NCBI RefSeq assembly: GCF_030419005.1
Contig: NZ_CP106951.1
Location: 868,001-932,000, forward strand
Direction of reading: 5' to 3'
Length of the DNA stretch: 64,000 nucleotides
Source of the DNA: Eleftheria terrae
GTDB taxonomy: Bacteria; Pseudomonadota; Gammaproteobacteria; Burkholderiales; Burkholderiaceae_C
Part shown: positions 7,396 to 15,323 of the stretch, one piece after another
Numbering within the stretch: position 1 is the first letter of the stretch
How the letters are laid out: each line of letters begins with the position of its first letter
Translations under genes and position numbers: made by a program
The notes under the pieces: model-generated
The model's input: the letters and a program-made list of their open reading frames with translations, nothing else
Database searches by the model: none
Told to the model about the DNA's origin: nothing

Positions 7396-8093
7396 GGAAA
7401 ACGTGCGGTTGGAAGGAAGCCGGCAGGACAGAAACGCGCCGCCGGCAGGACGGCCCGGCAGTCTCGCCCGGCAGTGTCGCTCATGGCGGAGCGATCGCCG
7501 CATCCCGCCCTGCATGGCGGGCTCCGAACCGCGGCCGGGTGGGCGGCAGCTGAGGCTGGACGTCCCCCCACGGCCGCTGCCCGTTACCCGTTCGGCGCTC
7601 GTCAATGGCCACGGCTGCGTACCGCCGCTGGCGCCCGGGGGTATCGCCCGGCGAGACCGGCGCATCGCCTGGCTCCCGGCGTGCGGCTTTTCACCGAGCA
7701 TGCGCACCGTTGCTGTTTTGCGATATCGCGCATGCCCCCTCTCCCCCCGTTGTTGCCCACCCCACCGGCCGTGCTGCCGCCAGCCCCCAGCCATCCCGGC
7801 AATCCGTGGAAATGTGCCCGCCACGAAGACCCCCATGCGGGGGGAGCCCCCACTGCAAGCGGCCGGCGCTGGCTACACTGCCGTCCTTACAAGAAACAAG
7901 GCGTGACGCATCCGGCCGGTATGGGCCGCGCTGCGCTGCCCACCAGGGAGGGTCCCGGCCTCCGCCAGCCCGCGCGGCACCGCGCCGGTGTGGCGTGGCC
8001 GTCGGCAGCGGTGCTGCCCACGGCCGGCCACCGCGCGAGCGCGACCCATTGCCTGCTGCGGCCATCGCTTGAAATGCCGCACGAGGCTCCCCG
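7396..8093. other. Long intergenic region
   Basis: About 700 bp between divergent genes. Several long ORFs cross it in different frames, but all are Arg/Pro/Ala-rich and lack start signals, so I do not call any. It must contain the promoter of the six-gene operon starting at 8094. No operator, riboswitch or mobile-element end is recognisable. Confidence 0.4.
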
Positions 8094-9074
8094 ATGATTC
8101 CGTTGCACATCCTCTCCACCGGCAAGGCGCTGCCGGACCACTGCGTCACCTCGGCCGAACTCGATGGCCGGCTGGGCTTGCGTCCCGGCCAGGTCGAGAA
8201 AAAGTCCGGCGTGGTGCATCGCTTCCATGCCGGCAACGACGACAGCCAGTCCGGCCTGGCCGCTGCGGCGTTGCGCGACGCCATGGCACGCGGCGGCGTG
8301 GCGCCTGCCTCGATCGATTTGTTGATCTCCGCCAGTGGCGTGGCCGAGCAGGCCTTGCCGTCCACCGCCTGCCGCATCGTCGAGCCGGCCGGCTTGCGCA
8401 TTGGCATGCCCGCCTTCGACGTCAATGCCAGCTGCCTGGGCTTCCTGGCCGCGCTGCAGGTGGCAGCCGGCCTGCTGGCCAGCGGCGCGTACCGGCGCAT
8501 CGCCATCGTGGCCAGCGACCTCGCCTCGCGCGGGCTGGACTGGAACGAGCCGGAAGCCTCGCTGATCTTCGGCGACGGCGCTGCAGCAGCGATTGTCGAA
8601 GCCGGCCCGGGCGGCTGCGGCATCGCCGCCCAGCGGCTGGAAACCTATCCCCAGGGCAAGGCGTGGTGCGAAGTGCGCGCCGGCGGTACGCGGCGCAACC
8701 CACGCGTCGGGCTGCTGCCGTCAGACCACCTCTTCTCTATGGATGGCAAGCGGGTCTTCAAGCTGGCTGCCGGGCTGATGGACGGTTTCCTGGCGCGCCT
8801 GTTCGAGGGCAGCGGCCACCGCCTGGACCAGATGGATGCGGTGGTGCCGCACCAGGCCAGCCACCTGTCGATGTCGCACCTGCGCAAGCGCCTGGGCATT
8901 CCGGCCGATGCGCTGGTGGATATCTATGCCCGGCACGGCAACCAGGTCAGCGCGTCCTTGCCGACCGCACTGCACGAGGCCATCCAGACCCGGCGCGTCG
9001 GGCCTGGCTCGCGCGTGTTGCTGCTGGGCTCGGCGGCCGGCCTCACCCTGGGTGGCATGGTGCTGGTGCTATGA
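8094..9074 (+). CDS. KAS III-like (OleA/FabH-type) condensing enzyme
   Basis: A 326-residue thiolase-fold enzyme that should join an acyl-CoA or acyl-ACP to a second acyl unit. The Cys-His-Asn triad is present: Cys114 in VNASCLGF, His253 in VVPHQASH and Asn283 in RHGNQVSAS. Sequence around these sites resembles stand-alone FabH-like enzymes in secondary pathways rather than the housekeeping FabH. It is the first gene of a six-gene run; its stop overlaps the next start as ATGA. Context (NAD-dependent reductase, adenylate-forming enzyme, hydrolase) suggests a beta-keto product that is reduced and activated, as in long-chain olefin or beta-lactone synthesis, but substrates are not known. Confidence 0.85.
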   Translation: MIPLHILSTGKALPDHCVTSAELDGRLGLRPGQVEKKSGVVHRFHAGNDDSQSGLAAAALRDAMARGGVAPASIDLLISASGVAEQALPSTACRIVEPAGLRIGMPAFDVNASCLGFLAALQVAAGLLASGAYRRIAIVASDLASRGLDWNEPEASLIFGDGAAAAIVEAGPGGCGIAAQRLETYPQGKAWCEVRAGGTRRNPRVGLLPSDHLFSMDGKRVFKLAAGLMDGFLARLFEGSGHRLDQMDAVVPHQASHLSMSHLRKRLGIPADALVDIYARHGNQVSASLPTALHEAIQTRRVGPGSRVLLLGSAAGLTLGGMVLVL

Positions 9075-10087
9075 AGGTCCTGGTCACCGGCGCCACCAGT
9101 GGCCTGGGGCGCAACGCGGTGGATGACCTGCTGCAGCACGGCCTGCCACTGCGGGCCACCGGGCGCAACCTGCAGCAGGGCGCTGCGCTGCAGCAGCTGG
9201 GCGTGGACTTCGAGCCGGCCGACCTGTCGCTGCTCACCCCGGTGCAGGCCGACCGCCTGCTGCGGGACGTCGACACGGTGTGGCACTGCGCGGCACTGTC
9301 GTCCCCATGGGGCCCGCGCCGCGCCTTCGAGGCGGCCAATGTCGAAGCCACCCGGCGGCTGGCCGAGGCGGCGGTGCGCCAGGGCGTGCGGCGTTTCGTG
9401 CACATCTCGACGCCGTCGCTGTACTTCGACTTCCGCCACCGCCAGCAGATCGACGAGGCCTGGCGCCCGGCCCGCCCGGTGAACGCCTATGCCGCCACCA
9501 AGGGCGAGGCGGAGGCGGTGTTGCAGAGCATCGCCTCGCGCCACGCCGGCACCACGGTGGTGATGCTGCGGCCGCGTGCGATCTTCGGGCCGCATGACCG
9601 GGTCATCGTGCCGCGCCTGCTGGCCCTGATGCGCCAGCGTGGCGGCGTGCTGCCGCTGCCAGGAGGCGGTCGCGCCCGCATGGACATGACCTATGTCGGC
9701 AACGTGGTGCATGCCATGCACCTGGCCAGCCGCGTGCCGGGCCTGCGCTCCGGCTCGGTCTACAACATCACCAACCAGGCGCCGACCACGCTGGCCGACC
9801 TGCTGCAGCGCCTGTTCGTCGACCAGCTGGGCCTGCCGCTGCGCATCCGCGCGCTGCCCTACCCGCTGCTGGCCGGCGTCGCCCGGCTGCTGGAGGCCGG
9901 CGGCCGGCTCACCGGCCGTGAGCCGCCCTTCACGCGCTACAGCATGGGCGCGCTGCACTACGAAATGACGCTGGACACCGGCCGCGCCCGCCGCGAGCTG
10001 GGCTGGCAACCGGTGATCGACCTGGATGAAGGCATCCGGCGCACCGCCGCATGGATACGAGCACATGGCACGCCTCACGGTCTTTGA
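9071..10087 (+). CDS. NAD-dependent epimerase/dehydratase (OleD/3-beta-HSD-like)
   Basis: A 338-residue extended short-chain dehydrogenase. It has the Rossmann motif GATSGLG at 7-13, a catalytic Tyr140/Lys144 pair (YAATK) and an upstream active-site Ser in HISTPSLY (111-118). The overall pattern is that of the 3-beta-hydroxysteroid dehydrogenase/OleD group. In this operon the natural substrate would be the 2-alkyl-3-ketoacid made by the preceding condensing enzyme, giving a 3-hydroxyacid. That is inferred from gene order and family, not shown. Overlaps of 4 bp upstream and 23 bp downstream imply translational coupling. Confidence 0.85.
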   Translation: MKVLVTGATSGLGRNAVDDLLQHGLPLRATGRNLQQGAALQQLGVDFEPADLSLLTPVQADRLLRDVDTVWHCAALSSPWGPRRAFEAANVEATRRLAEAAVRQGVRRFVHISTPSLYFDFRHRQQIDEAWRPARPVNAYAATKGEAEAVLQSIASRHAGTTVVMLRPRAIFGPHDRVIVPRLLALMRQRGGVLPLPGGGRARMDMTYVGNVVHAMHLASRVPGLRSGSVYNITNQAPTTLADLLQRLFVDQLGLPLRIRALPYPLLAGVARLLEAGGRLTGREPPFTRYSMGALHYEMTLDTGRARRELGWQPVIDLDEGIRRTAAWIRAHGTPHGL

Positions 10088-10871
10088 AGCCGGCTACTGC
10101 ACCCACATGGCCTGCATGGCGCTGCGCGGCGCGGGCTGGCACACCTGCGCCTTCCCCGCACGTGCCTGGCTGGTGGAAACCCGCCGTGGACGCTGGCTGT
10201 GGGACACCGGCTACGCCTCCCACTTCCTCGACCACACCCGCGAGGGCCTGTTCGCGCTCTACCGCAAGGTGACCCCGGTGCACTTCGACGCGGCCGACGC
10301 GCTGTGCCGCCAGCTGCGCGAGCGCGGCTACGCGCCGGGCGACCTGACAGGGCTGATCCTCTCGCACTTCCATGGCGACCACATCGCCGGCCTGCGCGAC
10401 TTTCCCGGCCTGCCCTGCATCTGCAGCGGCACCGGCTGGCAGCAGACGCGCCGCCGGCGCGGCCTGGCGGCGTTGCGCCGCGGCTTCGTGCCGGGGCTGA
10501 TCCCGCCGGACTTCGAGGCTCGCCTGAGCTTCATCGAGTCCTTCGAGCCGGTGCCGCTGCCGGCCACCCTGGCGCCCTTCACCACCGCCCGTGCGGTGCC
10601 CGGCAGCGATGGCGAGCTGCTGCTGGTGGAGCTGCCTGGCCACGCGGCCGGCCACATCGGCGCGCTGGTGCAGACGCAGGCGGGCTGGACCCTGCTGGCC
10701 GCCGATGCGGCATGGTCGGAGCACGGCTATCGCGACCTGCGCGGGCCGTCGCCGCTGACGCACCTGATTCTTGATGACACGCCGGCCTACCACCACACCC
10801 TGCAGCAGCTGCACCGGCTGCACCAGGGCGGTGGCGCCACCATCCTGCTCAGCCACGAGGGCGCCCTGTGA
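10065..10871 (+). CDS. MBL-fold metallo-hydrolase
   Basis: A 268-residue metallo-beta-lactamase-fold protein. The metal-binding signature HFHGDH is at 101-106, with further ligand candidates in ELPGHAAGHIG and in the Asp of LLAADAAW. The ATG at 10065 is used; an in-frame ATG at 10026 would make a longer overlap with the reductase gene. Relatives hydrolyse lactones, thioesters or phosphodiesters. Between a reductase and an adenylate-forming enzyme it could open a beta-lactone or release a thioester, a position filled by the alpha/beta-hydrolase OleB in olefin clusters. Confidence 0.83.
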   Translation: MARLTVFEAGYCTHMACMALRGAGWHTCAFPARAWLVETRRGRWLWDTGYASHFLDHTREGLFALYRKVTPVHFDAADALCRQLRERGYAPGDLTGLILSHFHGDHIAGLRDFPGLPCICSGTGWQQTRRRRGLAALRRGFVPGLIPPDFEARLSFIESFEPVPLPATLAPFTTARAVPGSDGELLLVELPGHAAGHIGALVQTQAGWTLLAADAAWSEHGYRDLRGPSPLTHLILDDTPAYHHTLQQLHRLHQGGGATILLSHEGAL

Positions 10872-12163
10872 CCCAGCTGTTGCGCCTGCTTGGCGCCTTT
10901 CGCCAGACCCGCCGGCTGAGCTGGCCTGACCGTGCCGCGCTGCTGGCCCACCAGGAACGGCAGTGGCAGCGCTACTGCCGTCGCGTGCTGCCGCGCAGCG
11001 CGTGGTTCCGGCCCTGGCTGGAGCAGCCGCTGGACCAGTGGCCGCAGATGAACAAGGCGCTGATGATGGCGCACTTCGACGAGATGAACACCGCCGGCCT
11101 GAAGCTGGCCGAGGTGCTGGCCTGTGCCCGGGCTGCCGAGGAGACGCGCGACTTCAGCCCCACGCTGGGCCGCTACAGCGTCGGCCTGTCGTCGGGCACA
11201 TCGGGCGGGCGCGGGGTCTTCGTGGTCAGCCCCGAGGAACGGGCGCAATGGGCCGGCGTGATGCTGGGCCGCCTGCTGCCCGGCGGGCTGCTGCAGGGGC
11301 AGCGGGTGGCCTTGTTCCTGCGCGCCAACAGCAACCTCTACCGCACGGTACGCACACCCTGCCTGCAGTTCCGCTTCTTCGACCTGTTCAGCCCGCTGGA
11401 GGCGCATGCCGGCCCGCTGGCCGCCATGCAGCCCAGCATCGTCGTGGCACCTGCCCAGGTGCTGCGGGCACTGGCGCTGCGAGTGCAGGCTGGGCAACTG
11501 GACATCGCGCCCGAGCGGGTCATCTCGGTGGCCGAGGTGCTGGAGCCACAGGACCGGCGGCTGCTGCAACAGGTCTTCGGCCGGGTCAGCGAGGTCTACC
11601 AGGCGACCGAAGGTTTCCTCGGCAGTAGCTGCAGCCATGGCAGCCTGCACCTGAACGAGTCCTTCCTGCGCATCGAGCCGCAATGGCTGGACGACAAGCG
11701 CTTCGTGCCGCTGGTGACCGACTTCACCCGCAGCACCCAGCCCATCGTGCGCTACCGGCTTGACGACATCCTGGTGGCGCGCGCCGCGCCCTGCCCTTGC
11801 GGCAATCCCGAGCTGGCCATCGACCGCATCGAAGGCCGCTGTGACGATGTGCTTCGCCTGCCGGGTGCGGCCGGCGCGCCGGTGACGGTATTTGCCGATG
11901 TGGTCTCGCGCGCCCTGGCGCAGGTGCTGCCGCTGGACGCCGACTACCGCTTGGTGCAAAGCGGCCCGCGGGCGCTGGGCCTGGCCATCGCACCGCTTGA
12001 CGCGGACGTGCACCAGCGCTGCCGGGCCCACCTGGGCCAGGTGTTCGCCCGACTGGGCGTGGCCACCGAGGCGCTGCACTGGGACGCGCCGGCCGGCTTG
12101 CCGGTGGCGGTCGACTTCACCGTCAAGCGACGCCGCATCGTCGGCTGGCGGGCTCCGGCATGA
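10868..12163 (+). CDS. Adenylate-forming enzyme (F390-synthetase/CapK-like)
   Basis: A 431-residue member of the phenylacetate-CoA-ligase/coenzyme F390 synthetase branch of the ANL superfamily. The nucleotide-binding loop is SSGTSGGRG at 108-116. Later motifs include YQATEGFLG, PIVRYRLDD and a Cys-containing turn APCPCGNPE before DRIEGRCDDVL. It should activate a carboxylate with ATP, but no CoA- or amine-acceptor can be read from the sequence. The GTG start overlaps the preceding TGA (GTGA). Within the operon it takes the position of OleC, although it belongs to a different ANL branch. Confidence 0.8.
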   Translation: MTQLLRLLGAFRQTRRLSWPDRAALLAHQERQWQRYCRRVLPRSAWFRPWLEQPLDQWPQMNKALMMAHFDEMNTAGLKLAEVLACARAAEETRDFSPTLGRYSVGLSSGTSGGRGVFVVSPEERAQWAGVMLGRLLPGGLLQGQRVALFLRANSNLYRTVRTPCLQFRFFDLFSPLEAHAGPLAAMQPSIVVAPAQVLRALALRVQAGQLDIAPERVISVAEVLEPQDRRLLQQVFGRVSEVYQATEGFLGSSCSHGSLHLNESFLRIEPQWLDDKRFVPLVTDFTRSTQPIVRYRLDDILVARAAPCPCGNPELAIDRIEGRCDDVLRLPGAAGAPVTVFADVVSRALAQVLPLDADYRLVQSGPRALGLAIAPLDADVHQRCRAHLGQVFARLGVATEALHWDAPAGLPVAVDFTVKRRRIVGWRAPA

Positions 12164-12801
12164 GGGCGCTCCTGCAGGCACTGCCGCCCCGGCTGCGCCA
12201 CCTGCTGTTCGGCTGGGGCAGCGTGGGCGTGGCCTACAGCCTTGGCGGCCTGCTGCAGCGGCCGGCCACGCTGCTGACCGAGTCGGCGCTGGACCGCCTG
12301 CTGCCCTTCGACCCGGCCGGCGTCTGGTGCTACTTGTCCTTCTTCCTGCTGGTGCCGCTTGGCTACCTGGCCTGCCCGGCGGCACGCCTGCCCTGGCTGA
12401 CCCGCGCCATGCAGTGCTGCGCGCTTGCCAGCGGGCTCGCCTTCATCGCCTGGCCCACCACCCTGGCCTACCCGGCGCTGCCGGCTGCCGGCGGCTGGAG
12501 CACCACGCTGCTGCAATGGCTGGCGGCGGCAGACACCGCGCAGAACTGCCTGCCCTCGCTGCACGGCGCGCTGACCGTGCTGGCCGCCTGGGCCCTGCTG
12601 CAGTGGCGCGAACGGCCCCTGCGCTCGCTGCTGGTGGTGCTGTGGGCGGCGGCCATCGCCTACAGCATCGTGCAGGCGCGGCGCCACTTGTCCATCGACC
12701 TCGGCGCCGGTGTGGTGCTCGGCCTTGCCGCGGGCCGGCTGTGCCGCCCCGCCGCCACACACGCCAGCCTTTGCCCCTTGCCGGAGACGACCGCGCCATG
12801 A
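12160..12801 (+). CDS. PAP2-type integral membrane phosphatase/transferase
   Basis: A 213-residue membrane protein with about five or six hydrophobic helices. The PAP2 signature is recognisable as CLPSLHGALT (motif 2, His) and RRHLSIDLGAG (motif 3, Arg-His-x3-Asp), both facing the same membrane side. The family removes phosphate from lipid phosphates or transfers head groups. Its start overlaps the previous stop (ATGA), and its own stop overlaps the start of the next gene. In this operon it could process a lipid phosphate intermediate or transfer a head group to the finished lipid. Confidence 0.8.
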   Translation: MRALLQALPPRLRHLLFGWGSVGVAYSLGGLLQRPATLLTESALDRLLPFDPAGVWCYLSFFLLVPLGYLACPAARLPWLTRAMQCCALASGLAFIAWPTTLAYPALPAAGGWSTTLLQWLAAADTAQNCLPSLHGALTVLAAWALLQWRERPLRSLLVVLWAAAIAYSIVQARRHLSIDLGAGVVLGLAAGRLCRPAATHASLCPLPETTAP

Positions 12802-13988
12802 ACGCCCTTGCCTTGCCGCTGGCCCTGATGCTGGTGCTGGTGCTCGCCGAACAGCTCGCGCTCAAGTGGCGCCGCGGCCAGCCCATTCCCTGGCTCGACC
12901 TGATCTTCAACCTGCATTCCGGCCAGCTCGTGCTGTGGCTGTTCCGCGGTGTGGAGGTGGCCGTGTTTGCCTGGGTGGCCGGGCATGCCAGCCTGGGCTG
13001 GCTGTCGCACTGGCCCGCGCCGGCACTCTGGCTCTTCACCGTGCTGGCCTGGGACCTGGGCTTCTACTGCCTGCACCGCGTGCATCACAAGATCGGCTGG
13101 ATGTGGGCCATTCACGTGGTGCACCACCAGGGCGAGCACTTCAACCTGTCGCTGGGCATCCGCAATTCCTGGTACTCGTCGCTCGCGTCGATTCCCTTCT
13201 TCCTGCCACTGGCCGTGCTGGGCGTGCCGACCGAGGTCTTCATGGTGGTGAGCAGCGTCCACTACTCCATCCAGTTCTACAACCACAACGGCTGGGTGGG
13301 CCGCTGCGGCTGGCTGGAGCAGGTGCTGGTGACGCCGTCGCACCACCGGGTGCACCATGGCGCCAACCCCGAGTACATCGACAAGAACTTCGGCGGCACC
13401 TTCCTGTGGTGGGACCGGCTGTTCGGCACCTTCCAGCCGGCGTTGCCCGAGGTGCCCATCGTCTACGGCACCCCCGGCCTGCCGGCCAGCCACAACCCGT
13501 TCTGGGCCAGCCACCTGCCGGTGCTGCGCTACCTGGGCTGGCCGGGCCCGCGACTGCGCCAGCAACCGGCCAGCACGGTGCTCGGGCGCCTGGTGGGCGC
13601 CGGCGGCATCGCGCTGTTTGCGGTGGTGATCTATTGCGTGCACCGCCAGGGCGGCTGGCCGCCGGGCCAGGAGGCGGTGCTGTTCGCCCTGGTGATCGCG
13701 CTGTCGTTGGTGCTGGGCGGACTCTCCGATGGCCGCCCCTGGGCGGCGCCTGCCTGGTGTGTGCTCGGCCTGGCGCTGCCGCTGGCGTTCATCGGCCGCT
13801 ACCAGTTGCGTGACCCGTTCGGCTGCGCCGTGATGCTGGCCCTGGGGCTGCATGCGCTGGCGCTGGGCGCCTGGTGGTGGCGCGGGCAGCGCCGCCACAC
13901 CGCACCGCCCCCCGCAGAGCCTGTGGCCCTGCCTGCCGGCTTGACGCCATCGCAGCGCGGCGCCGGCCCGTCCGCGGCCGAGCGTTAA
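12798..13988 (+). CDS. Sterol-desaturase/fatty-acid-hydroxylase family membrane protein
   Basis: A 396-residue multi-pass di-iron enzyme. The three histidine clusters of the family are present: HRVHH at 93-97, HVVHH at 106-110 with a following GEHFN, and HHRVHH at 182-187. The N-terminal 250 residues carry the catalytic membrane domain; the C-terminal 140 add about four more hydrophobic helices. Members use O2 to hydroxylate or desaturate alkyl chains of lipids. As the last gene of the six-gene run it probably tailors the product made by the upstream enzymes. Confidence 0.85.
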   Translation: MNALALPLALMLVLVLAEQLALKWRRGQPIPWLDLIFNLHSGQLVLWLFRGVEVAVFAWVAGHASLGWLSHWPAPALWLFTVLAWDLGFYCLHRVHHKIGWMWAIHVVHHQGEHFNLSLGIRNSWYSSLASIPFFLPLAVLGVPTEVFMVVSSVHYSIQFYNHNGWVGRCGWLEQVLVTPSHHRVHHGANPEYIDKNFGGTFLWWDRLFGTFQPALPEVPIVYGTPGLPASHNPFWASHLPVLRYLGWPGPRLRQQPASTVLGRLVGAGGIALFAVVIYCVHRQGGWPPGQEAVLFALVIALSLVLGGLSDGRPWAAPAWCVLGLALPLAFIGRYQLRDPFGCAVMLALGLHALALGAWWWRGQRRHTAPPPAEPVALPAGLTPSQRGAGPSAAER

Positions 13989-14498: not shown

Positions 14499-15323
14499 TC
14501 AACGCCAGCGCAGCTCGCGTCCCGACGGCCCGTCGCGCCAAGCGAGCCCGCCGGCCAGGCCGGCCAGCAGGGCGTCGAAGGTGTCGCTGCCGTGCTCGCG
14601 GACGTCGAAGCTCCCGTCCAGCCGGCGCACCATGCGCTCCACCGCGGACGGCTCGGCCCACGGCTCGCCGCTGCGCAGGGCCAGCACGCGCAGCGCGCGT
14701 CGCACCAGCTCGGCGGCGGGGCCGCCAGGCAGCGGCTCCTCACGCACGCCGGAGGCGTCGGCCGGGCCCGGCGGCGCCTCTTCCACCAGGCTCTCGTAGT
14801 AGCGGAATTCGTGGCAGCTGCGCGCCCAGTGCCGATTGGTGGTGCGGCGGCTGCCCACGCCGACCAGCCGGCGCCCGGCGGCCTTCACCTTCTGCGCCAG
14901 CGGCATGAAGTCGCTGTCGCCGCCGACCACCATCACGGTGCCCACGTGCGGCTGGCGGCCCAGGTCCTCCATCGCGTCGAGGCAGAGGCGGATGTCGGCG
15001 CCGTTCTTGGCCGAAGCACCGGGCGGGAAGAGCTGGATGAGCTCGATCGCGTTTTGCAGCAGCACGTCGCGGTAGCGGCCGAAGAACTGCCAGTTGCAGT
15101 AGGCGCGGTGGACCGCGATCGGCCCCAGCGCATGGGCCAGGTCGACGACGGCCTGCACGTCGATCAGCGGCTCCTGCAGCCGGAAGCGGGCATCGGGCTT
15201 GTGGTAGCTGCCTTCACCCTGACGCGCCTCGCAGAGGCTGGCATGCAGGTTCTCGAAGTCCCAGTAGAGGGCGATGGCACCCTGGGGTTCGTCAGGCAGC
15301 GAGGCGGTGGGGTTCACGGGCAT
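14499..15323 (-). CDS. NYN-domain ribonuclease-like protein with C-terminal OST-HTH-type domain
   Basis: A 274-residue protein. Residues about 15-180 match the NYN/LabA (PIN-like) fold: an acidic WDFENLHA near the start, NGADIRLCLDAMEDL in the middle and VVGGDSDFMPLAQKVKAAG later. These supply the cluster of acidic metal-binding residues used by this nuclease superfamily. The C-terminal about 70 residues (VRRALRVLALRSG...FDALLAGLAG) resemble an OST-HTH/LOTUS RNA-binding domain. A role in RNA cleavage is likely from the family; the target is unknown. Confidence 0.83.
   Translation of the reverse strand: MPVNPTASLPDEPQGAIALYWDFENLHASLCEARQGEGSYHKPDARFRLQEPLIDVQAVVDLAHALGPIAVHRAYCNWQFFGRYRDVLLQNAIELIQLFPPGASAKNGADIRLCLDAMEDLGRQPHVGTVMVVGGDSDFMPLAQKVKAAGRRLVGVGSRRTTNRHWARSCHEFRYYESLVEEAPPGPADASGVREEPLPGGPAAELVRRALRVLALRSGEPWAEPSAVERMVRRLDGSFDVREHGSDTFDALLAGLAGGLAWRDGPSGRELRWR

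Follow-up and report, generated by a model that had tools for sequence, protein, structure and literature searches.

What do the six overlapping genes at positions 8094-13988 of a 64,000-nucleotide (nt) stretch of Eleftheria terrae DNA (contig NZ_CP106951.1, positions 868,001-932,000; hereafter the window) encode, and do they belong together? The initial annotation, made from the sequence alone, had described a six-gene operon joined by overlaps throughout, and we confirmed all six plus-strand open reading frames (ORFs), here named A to F, with an overlap at each of the five junctions (A/B 4 nt, B/C 23 nt, C/D 4 nt, D/E 4 nt and E/F 4 nt). The operon is real and conserved, and its layout is common to other soil bacteria and, among the complete Escherichia coli genomes searched, to about one in eight. 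We give an even chance to the reading developed below, in which A-D make up a conserved core of four enzymes and the six genes represent one variant of a transferable operon for lipid biosynthesis; the operon probably makes an unusual lipid.

8094..9074, + strand: gene A, 326 amino acids (aa), ketoacyl synthase III (KAS III)-type condensing enzyme; Pfam ACP_syn_III/ACP_syn_III_C; Cys114, His253, Asn283
9071..10087, + strand: gene B, 338 aa, extended short-chain dehydrogenase/epimerase-family reductase; distant OleD relative; Ser113, Tyr140, Lys144
10065..10871, + strand: gene C, 268 aa, metallo-beta-lactamase (MBL)-fold hydrolase, lactonase-like; Pfam Lactamase_B
10868..12163, + strand: gene D, 431 aa, adenylate-forming enzyme with a GTG start; TIGR02304 (F390 synthetase-related, PaaK-like)
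12160..12801, + strand: gene E, 213 aa, PAP2-superfamily membrane enzyme; PSLH (H135) and RRHxxxD (H176, D180) motifs
12798..13988, + strand: gene F, 396 aa, sterol-desaturase/fatty acid hydroxylase family; HRVHH, HVVHH and HRVHH boxes, identified by eye

Conservation of the operon and its four-enzyme core

A chance arrangement is excluded: the gene order is kept in other genera at 48-68% protein identity, and the B/C overlap recurs. We placed the start of C at 10065 rather than at the longest-ORF start, 10026, because relatives begin at the equivalent position; the 23-nt overlap that results is found in nine of the ten A-F loci measured (five being Escherichia), with 32 nt and a TTG start in L056. 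A single weak promoter-like match lies at 8069-8098, overlapping the start codon of gene A; no such match was found around the beginning of the operon in E. coli.

A pattern scan for D, which covered one genome per species across 84,980 species and reaches close relatives only, returned six loci, two in Cupriavidus and four in Escherichia, all six carrying A-F in the same order. The plasmid collection yielded 54 records, the best being from Burkholderia stagnalis with A-F 59-68% identical to the window. In total, 28 loci with a TIGR02304-type gene were opened: the window, L031-L041, L045, L046, L056-L068 and L075. Of the 54 plasmid records 11 were chosen, whereas the nine further genomes with a match at E 1e-40 were all included; six of these nine score over the family cut-off and three score under it. 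The A-F order occurs in 11 of these loci, and in nine of the ten besides the window a desaturase gene, G, comes next, the tenth being L036, whose contig ends inside F. Gene G, which is absent from the initial annotation, follows F in Cupriavidus, Burkholderia, Escherichia and L056, a member of the same class; it has no match in the 64,000 nt of the window, and a search of the window's own genome gave a single match, 28% identical and far off on the same contig. The initial annotation had set conservation of the gene neighbours in relatives as its test, and the outcome favours the operon, which is conserved as a unit across genera.

The A-D genes form a wider module. They lie within about 10 kb in all 28 loci, with differing neighbours, and are contiguous in the order A-B-C-D in 23; an ATP-grasp gene stands between A and B in L064 and L067, and A-D are rearranged in L040, L046 and L075. 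The hosts represent three phyla, namely Pseudomonadota, Bacillota (Paenibacillus, Pontibacillus) and Fusobacteriota. Recognisable tailoring genes beside the other modules include ATP-grasp, GNAT and Rieske genes, a sulfotransferase accompanied by TetR, and a fatty acid desaturase, the last in a module that also encodes an unknown protein whose HxxxDxxG motif, seen by eye, is reminiscent of condensation-domain acyltransferases. These are group transferases, ligases and oxygenases, which fits a core that would deliver a functionalised acyl scaffold.

Possession of the operon is patchy. Within the window's family, a TIGR02304 match at E 1e-40 is present in three of 399 genomes, the window's own included, and in none of the four same-genus genomes listed; in a sample of the order, only the window's own genome of 200 is over the TIGR02304 cut-off, and weak matches in 68 other genomes all fall under it. 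This pattern makes transfer between lineages likely. The G+C content of the operon (0.717) equals that of the window (0.714), leaving no compositional trace of a recent transfer, and no tRNA was found in the window. The window's own genome measures 7.03 Mb; the four same-genus genomes listed measure 3.3-3.9 Mb.

Individual loci show features of their own. In L040 (Pseudomonas sp. Leaf58), B is split over two annotated ORFs (L040:1783-2732) and the module genes are dispersed across some 10 kb, which may mark a decaying copy. An annotated NYN gene also lies inside this module, and an NYN-type protein, recognised by eye, is encoded just downstream of the operon in the window (14499-15323, minus strand), probably by coincidence. 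At L059:7494-8431 the match to B falls into two overlapping pieces in different frames, possibly a frameshift or sequence error. The next long same-strand ORF downstream of the bare A-D of L057 encodes an inverse autotransporter/invasin-like protein (L057:4430-7669), and L056 carries two differing desaturase genes in tandem after F (L056:12149-14367), 46% and 53% identical to E. coli G. L075 (NZ_CP084075.1) is a 2.1 Mb Fusobacterium record labelled as a plasmid and is probably a chromosome.

Escherichia coli copies

With window positions 10000-13988 as the query, partial matches were found in 672 of 5,426 complete E. coli genomes. An E. coli copy used as the query was covered to at least 80% over A-D in 672 genomes, in 670 chromosomal and two plasmid places, and at least 80% of the seven-gene stretch lies in one place in 671. 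The operon follows narGHJI in five Escherichia loci (L033-L037), and a query spanning the narI-A junction was covered to at least 80% in 672 E. coli genomes, so all of them appear to carry the operon at one common site. Strain MG1655 reads narI-ychS-tyrV and has no operon at that site; the K-12 narI-ychS-tyrV stretch is matched to at least 80% in 3,435 of the 5,426 genomes, a rough count of empty sites given the repeats in this query.

Carriers include EC958 and LF82, with full-length matches in NRG 857C, CFT073, ATCC 25922 and a Nissle record; we take these strains to belong to phylogroup B2. The annotations of CFT073 and Rb-23 show each of the seven genes as ordinary and unbroken (CFT073, L076, is a full E. 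coli copy that stands outside the 28-locus count). Comparing E. coli Rb-23 with each of two other Escherichia, we found ratios of nonsynonymous to synonymous substitution (dN/dS) of 0.07-0.17 for all seven genes; the Escherichia copies are under purifying selection.

In one of the 672 genomes, E. coli S7 (NZ_CP107128.1), the match to L037:6985-13866 is split in two, with the first part covering 70% of the query and ending within F, which suggests an insertion or rearrangement in F. The operon is also present in L039 (NZ_CP141085.1) and CP054248.1, E. coli records that bear the label of a large plasmid, and the L039 copy comes with the chromosomal narGHJI-hns neighbourhood. These are either large chromosomal segments on plasmids or errors of assembly or label.

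Enzyme assignments for genes A to G

We compared residues in alignments of 21 module members for A, C and D, and of 20 for B together with one OleD. Loci L034, L035, L039, L060, L061 and L075 are absent from these alignments, as are L040 from those of A, B and C, L036 from that of D and L059 from that of B. The conserved residues of A-E are assigned the catalytic and metal-binding roles known for their families, and as far as sequence tells, the genes look like working enzymes.

Gene A belongs to the KAS III superfamily, with its Cys114/His253/Asn283 triad invariant in all 21 members. Its best solved relatives are the 4v2p ketosynthase (178.6 bits), which we take to be MxnB in its chain-joining role, and CorB (173.1 bits); the best FabH-type solved entry scores 148.7 bits and 3row, presumably OleA, 56 bits. 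The protein falls below the cut-offs of both the NCBIfam fabH model (196.2 vs 292.1 bits) and its best NCBIfam model, PRK07204 (327.7 vs 402 bits). A reference ole cluster (L070) was taken from a genome with an OleD over the curated cut-off (641.3 vs 580 bits), and its KAS III was treated as OleA by its position in the cluster. Over 305 residues this protein shares 27% identity with A, and its Glu97 (LEPSTA) aligns with Leu88 (ALPSTA) of A. Glutamate is the active-site base of OleA, and the corresponding column holds Leu or Ile in all 21 module A proteins. The parallel that the initial annotation had drawn between A and OleA is thus not borne out, as the glutamate is missing and A is closer to 4v2p, CorB and FabH than to 3row. 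A phage search with gene A returned 16 records, with identity of at most 33% in the five listed.

Gene B was likewise read as an OleD counterpart. It is a distant relative, 32% identical to an OleD that is itself over the curated cut-off, with OleD as its best NCBIfam match; at 155.7 bits against a cut-off of 580, it falls far short of that equivalog model. Ser113, Tyr140 and Lys144 are common to the 20 module members and the one OleD. The window's own genome holds no OleD-family match at E 1e-100.

The metal ligands of C (H101/H103/D105/H106, H193, D214 and H264) are invariant in all 21 members, and the closest folds to its predicted model (mean predicted local distance difference test score, pLDDT, 74.7; 42 of 268 residues under 50) are lactonases. 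Ligands and fold together mark C as an MBL-fold, lactonase-like protein. In alignments it is 18-25% identical to N-acyl homoserine lactone (AHL) lactonases and 4-pyridoxolactonase, and it far misses the NCBIfam AHL lactonase cut-offs for AiiA (53.7 vs 375 bits) and AttM (46.3 vs 390 bits). PqsE is not among the matches listed for the fold of C, which rules out nothing. Given the predicted fold, a lactone step in the pathway is plausible; no OleB is encoded in the operon.

Gene D is a clear member of TIGR02304 (495.8 bits; cut-off 251.9), a family whose NCBIfam name assigns no function and says nothing on the product. Its S108/G110/G113 loop, E248, D300, R324 and K420 are invariant in all 21 members, and its only solved relatives are phenylacetate-CoA-ligase-type enzymes (CoA, coenzyme A; best 34.8 bits). 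D has no Pfam hit at all, AMP-binding included, so it is of another type than OleC, to which it had been compared. In PMC2649909 an 'F390 synthetase' adjoining a type II fatty acid synthesis (FASII) cluster is mentioned, with no more than a possible acyl-CoA ligase role.

Gene E belongs to the PAP2 superfamily, with H135, H176 and D180 invariant in 8 of 8 proteins and Pfam matches barely over threshold (PAP2_3 28.6 bits, cut-off 27; PAP2 28.3 bits, cut-off 27.2). The best two matches to its low-confidence model are a sphingomyelin synthase-related protein and Aur1, ahead of PAP2 phosphatases, and the third is an unrelated flippase. A sequence-profile search ranks the phosphatase LpxE first among solved proteins (E 0.013), followed by four weaker, chance-like matches. 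Gene F matches FA_hydroxylase at 98.6 bits and OlsE weakly (56.1 bits, under the cut-off of 475). No solved sequence relative was found for F at E 0.001, and none that is credible for G, which gave one chance match (E 2.4). By analogy, E and F together with G resemble sphingolipid tailoring.

A candidate lipid pathway and its rivals

From these family assignments we infer a step order, substrates and a product. D would adenylate a carboxylic acid and hand it on as a thioester, or would instead act last and activate the product acid. A would carry out a decarboxylative Claisen condensation to a 3-oxoacyl product, which B would reduce to the 3-hydroxyacyl form, and C may hydrolyse a lactone or thioester at release. 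In the membrane, E may act on a phosphate group, either by removal or by head-group transfer like Aur1 and sphingomyelin synthase, F would hydroxylate the chain, and G, where present, would desaturate it. The order D-A-B-C followed by membrane finishing would be the most economical. The closest solved relatives of A, CorB and the 4v2p ketosynthase, share its Cys-His-Asn triad and presumably belong to polyketide clusters, whereas A sits among lipid-type enzymes with no polyketide synthase.

The initial annotation had seen olefin- or beta-lactone-like logic in the operon, a comparison that is right only in part. Like the Ole pathway, the operon groups a condensing enzyme with an OleD-related Ser-Tyr-Lys reductase, a hydrolase and an adenylate-forming enzyme. 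In such a pathway with replaced enzymes, A would join two acyl chains head-to-head non-decarboxylatively, B would reduce, D would close a beta-lactone and C would open or break it, and the distant kinship of B with OleD, the adenylate-forming nature of D and the lactonases nearest in fold to C all accord with this. The operon differs in its TIGR02304/PaaK-type D, in a lactonase-like MBL protein instead of OleB and in its extra membrane enzymes. Against the olefin route stand the Leu or Ile of A, its greater closeness to FabH and CorB than to OleA, the lack of any OleB-type alpha/beta hydrolase or OleC AMP-binding hit among the six operon proteins in Pfam, and an own genome without an OleD-family match at the threshold given above. 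We rejected the operon as an ole cluster on the missing glutamate of A, the lack of an AMP-binding hit in D and the absence of an encoded OleB, and regard the version with replaced enzymes as unlikely. A small diffusible signal like the Pseudomonas quinolone signal (PQS), with D as an aryl- or acyl-CoA ligase, A extending its product with malonyl-CoA and B and C modifying it, is equally improbable. Such a route would suit the phenylacetate-CoA-ligase-type relatives of D, the resemblance of C to AHL lactonases and the presence among the solved relatives of A of a PQS biosynthetic enzyme (103 bits), which we take to be PqsD; it sits poorly with the three membrane lipid-type enzymes of the A-G form, and no single regulator gene is kept with the module in the annotated relatives examined. 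Very unlikely is a catabolic or detoxifying operon, in which the acid released from a lactone by C would be activated by D and passed to breakdown by B and A. The lactonase fold of C and the possibility that D is a CoA ligase speak for it, but A is a KAS III-type synthase, the PAP2 protein, hydroxylase and desaturase look biosynthetic, and none of the six genes encodes a transporter.

Bolder is a ceramide-like lipid made without serine palmitoyltransferase, in which A and B would build a 3-hydroxy long-chain unit and D would activate the acid to be coupled to it; as in sphingolipid tailoring, E would be the head-group transferase, F the chain hydroxylase and G the desaturase. In Caulobacter, dihydroceramide synthesis requires not only serine palmitoyltransferase and an acyl carrier protein (ACP) but also an acyl-activating enzyme, an epimerase/dehydrogenase and an acyl transferase (PMC9386255). 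The operon shares with the bacterial dihydroceramide pathway an acyl-activating enzyme and an epimerase-family protein, as well as hydroxylase, desaturase and possible head-group enzymes, but has no dedicated ACP, and no serine palmitoyltransferase is found among its six proteins, a statement whose scope is the operon. We hold this version to be improbable, though a little less so than the olefin and signal routes, and the larger proposal, that A-D are the core of an undescribed small lipid cluster family in at least three phyla and that A-G makes a ceramide-like phospholipid without serine palmitoyltransferase, to be doubtful.

Several points weigh against a transferable lipid operon on an A-D core. 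The 28 loci were selected by having D, which scores under the family cut-off in L046, L059 and L062 at least. Pairwise distance matrices of A-D correlate at r 0.85-0.91 over 19 loci, with none of 2000 permutations as high; this speaks for the core, but the shared species history of the hosts accounts for part of it. No recognisable tailoring gene lies beside the module in L057, L058 or L066, and neither an ACP nor a transporter is present among the operon genes. A lactonase-like C is unexpected under a simple chain-release role, and the model of E is weak (mean pLDDT 60).

Among the papers listed in searches of an open-access library, none describes the operon; subscription papers and preprints lay outside the search. 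With its conservation across genera, this is in line with the suggestion that the lipid pathway may be undescribed. The lipid inventory of E. coli is generally regarded as well known, and the operon points to a lineage-specific lipid or lipid-like metabolite that escaped notice because K-12 MG1655, the model strain, lacks the genes. If the larger proposal is true, roughly one complete E. coli genome in eight, the Nissle record included, would carry the genes for a membrane lipid that the species is not known to contain. The full-length copies in Nissle and ATCC 25922 make an operon from an environmental genome testable in common strains, and a function for the operon would give TIGR02304 a function.

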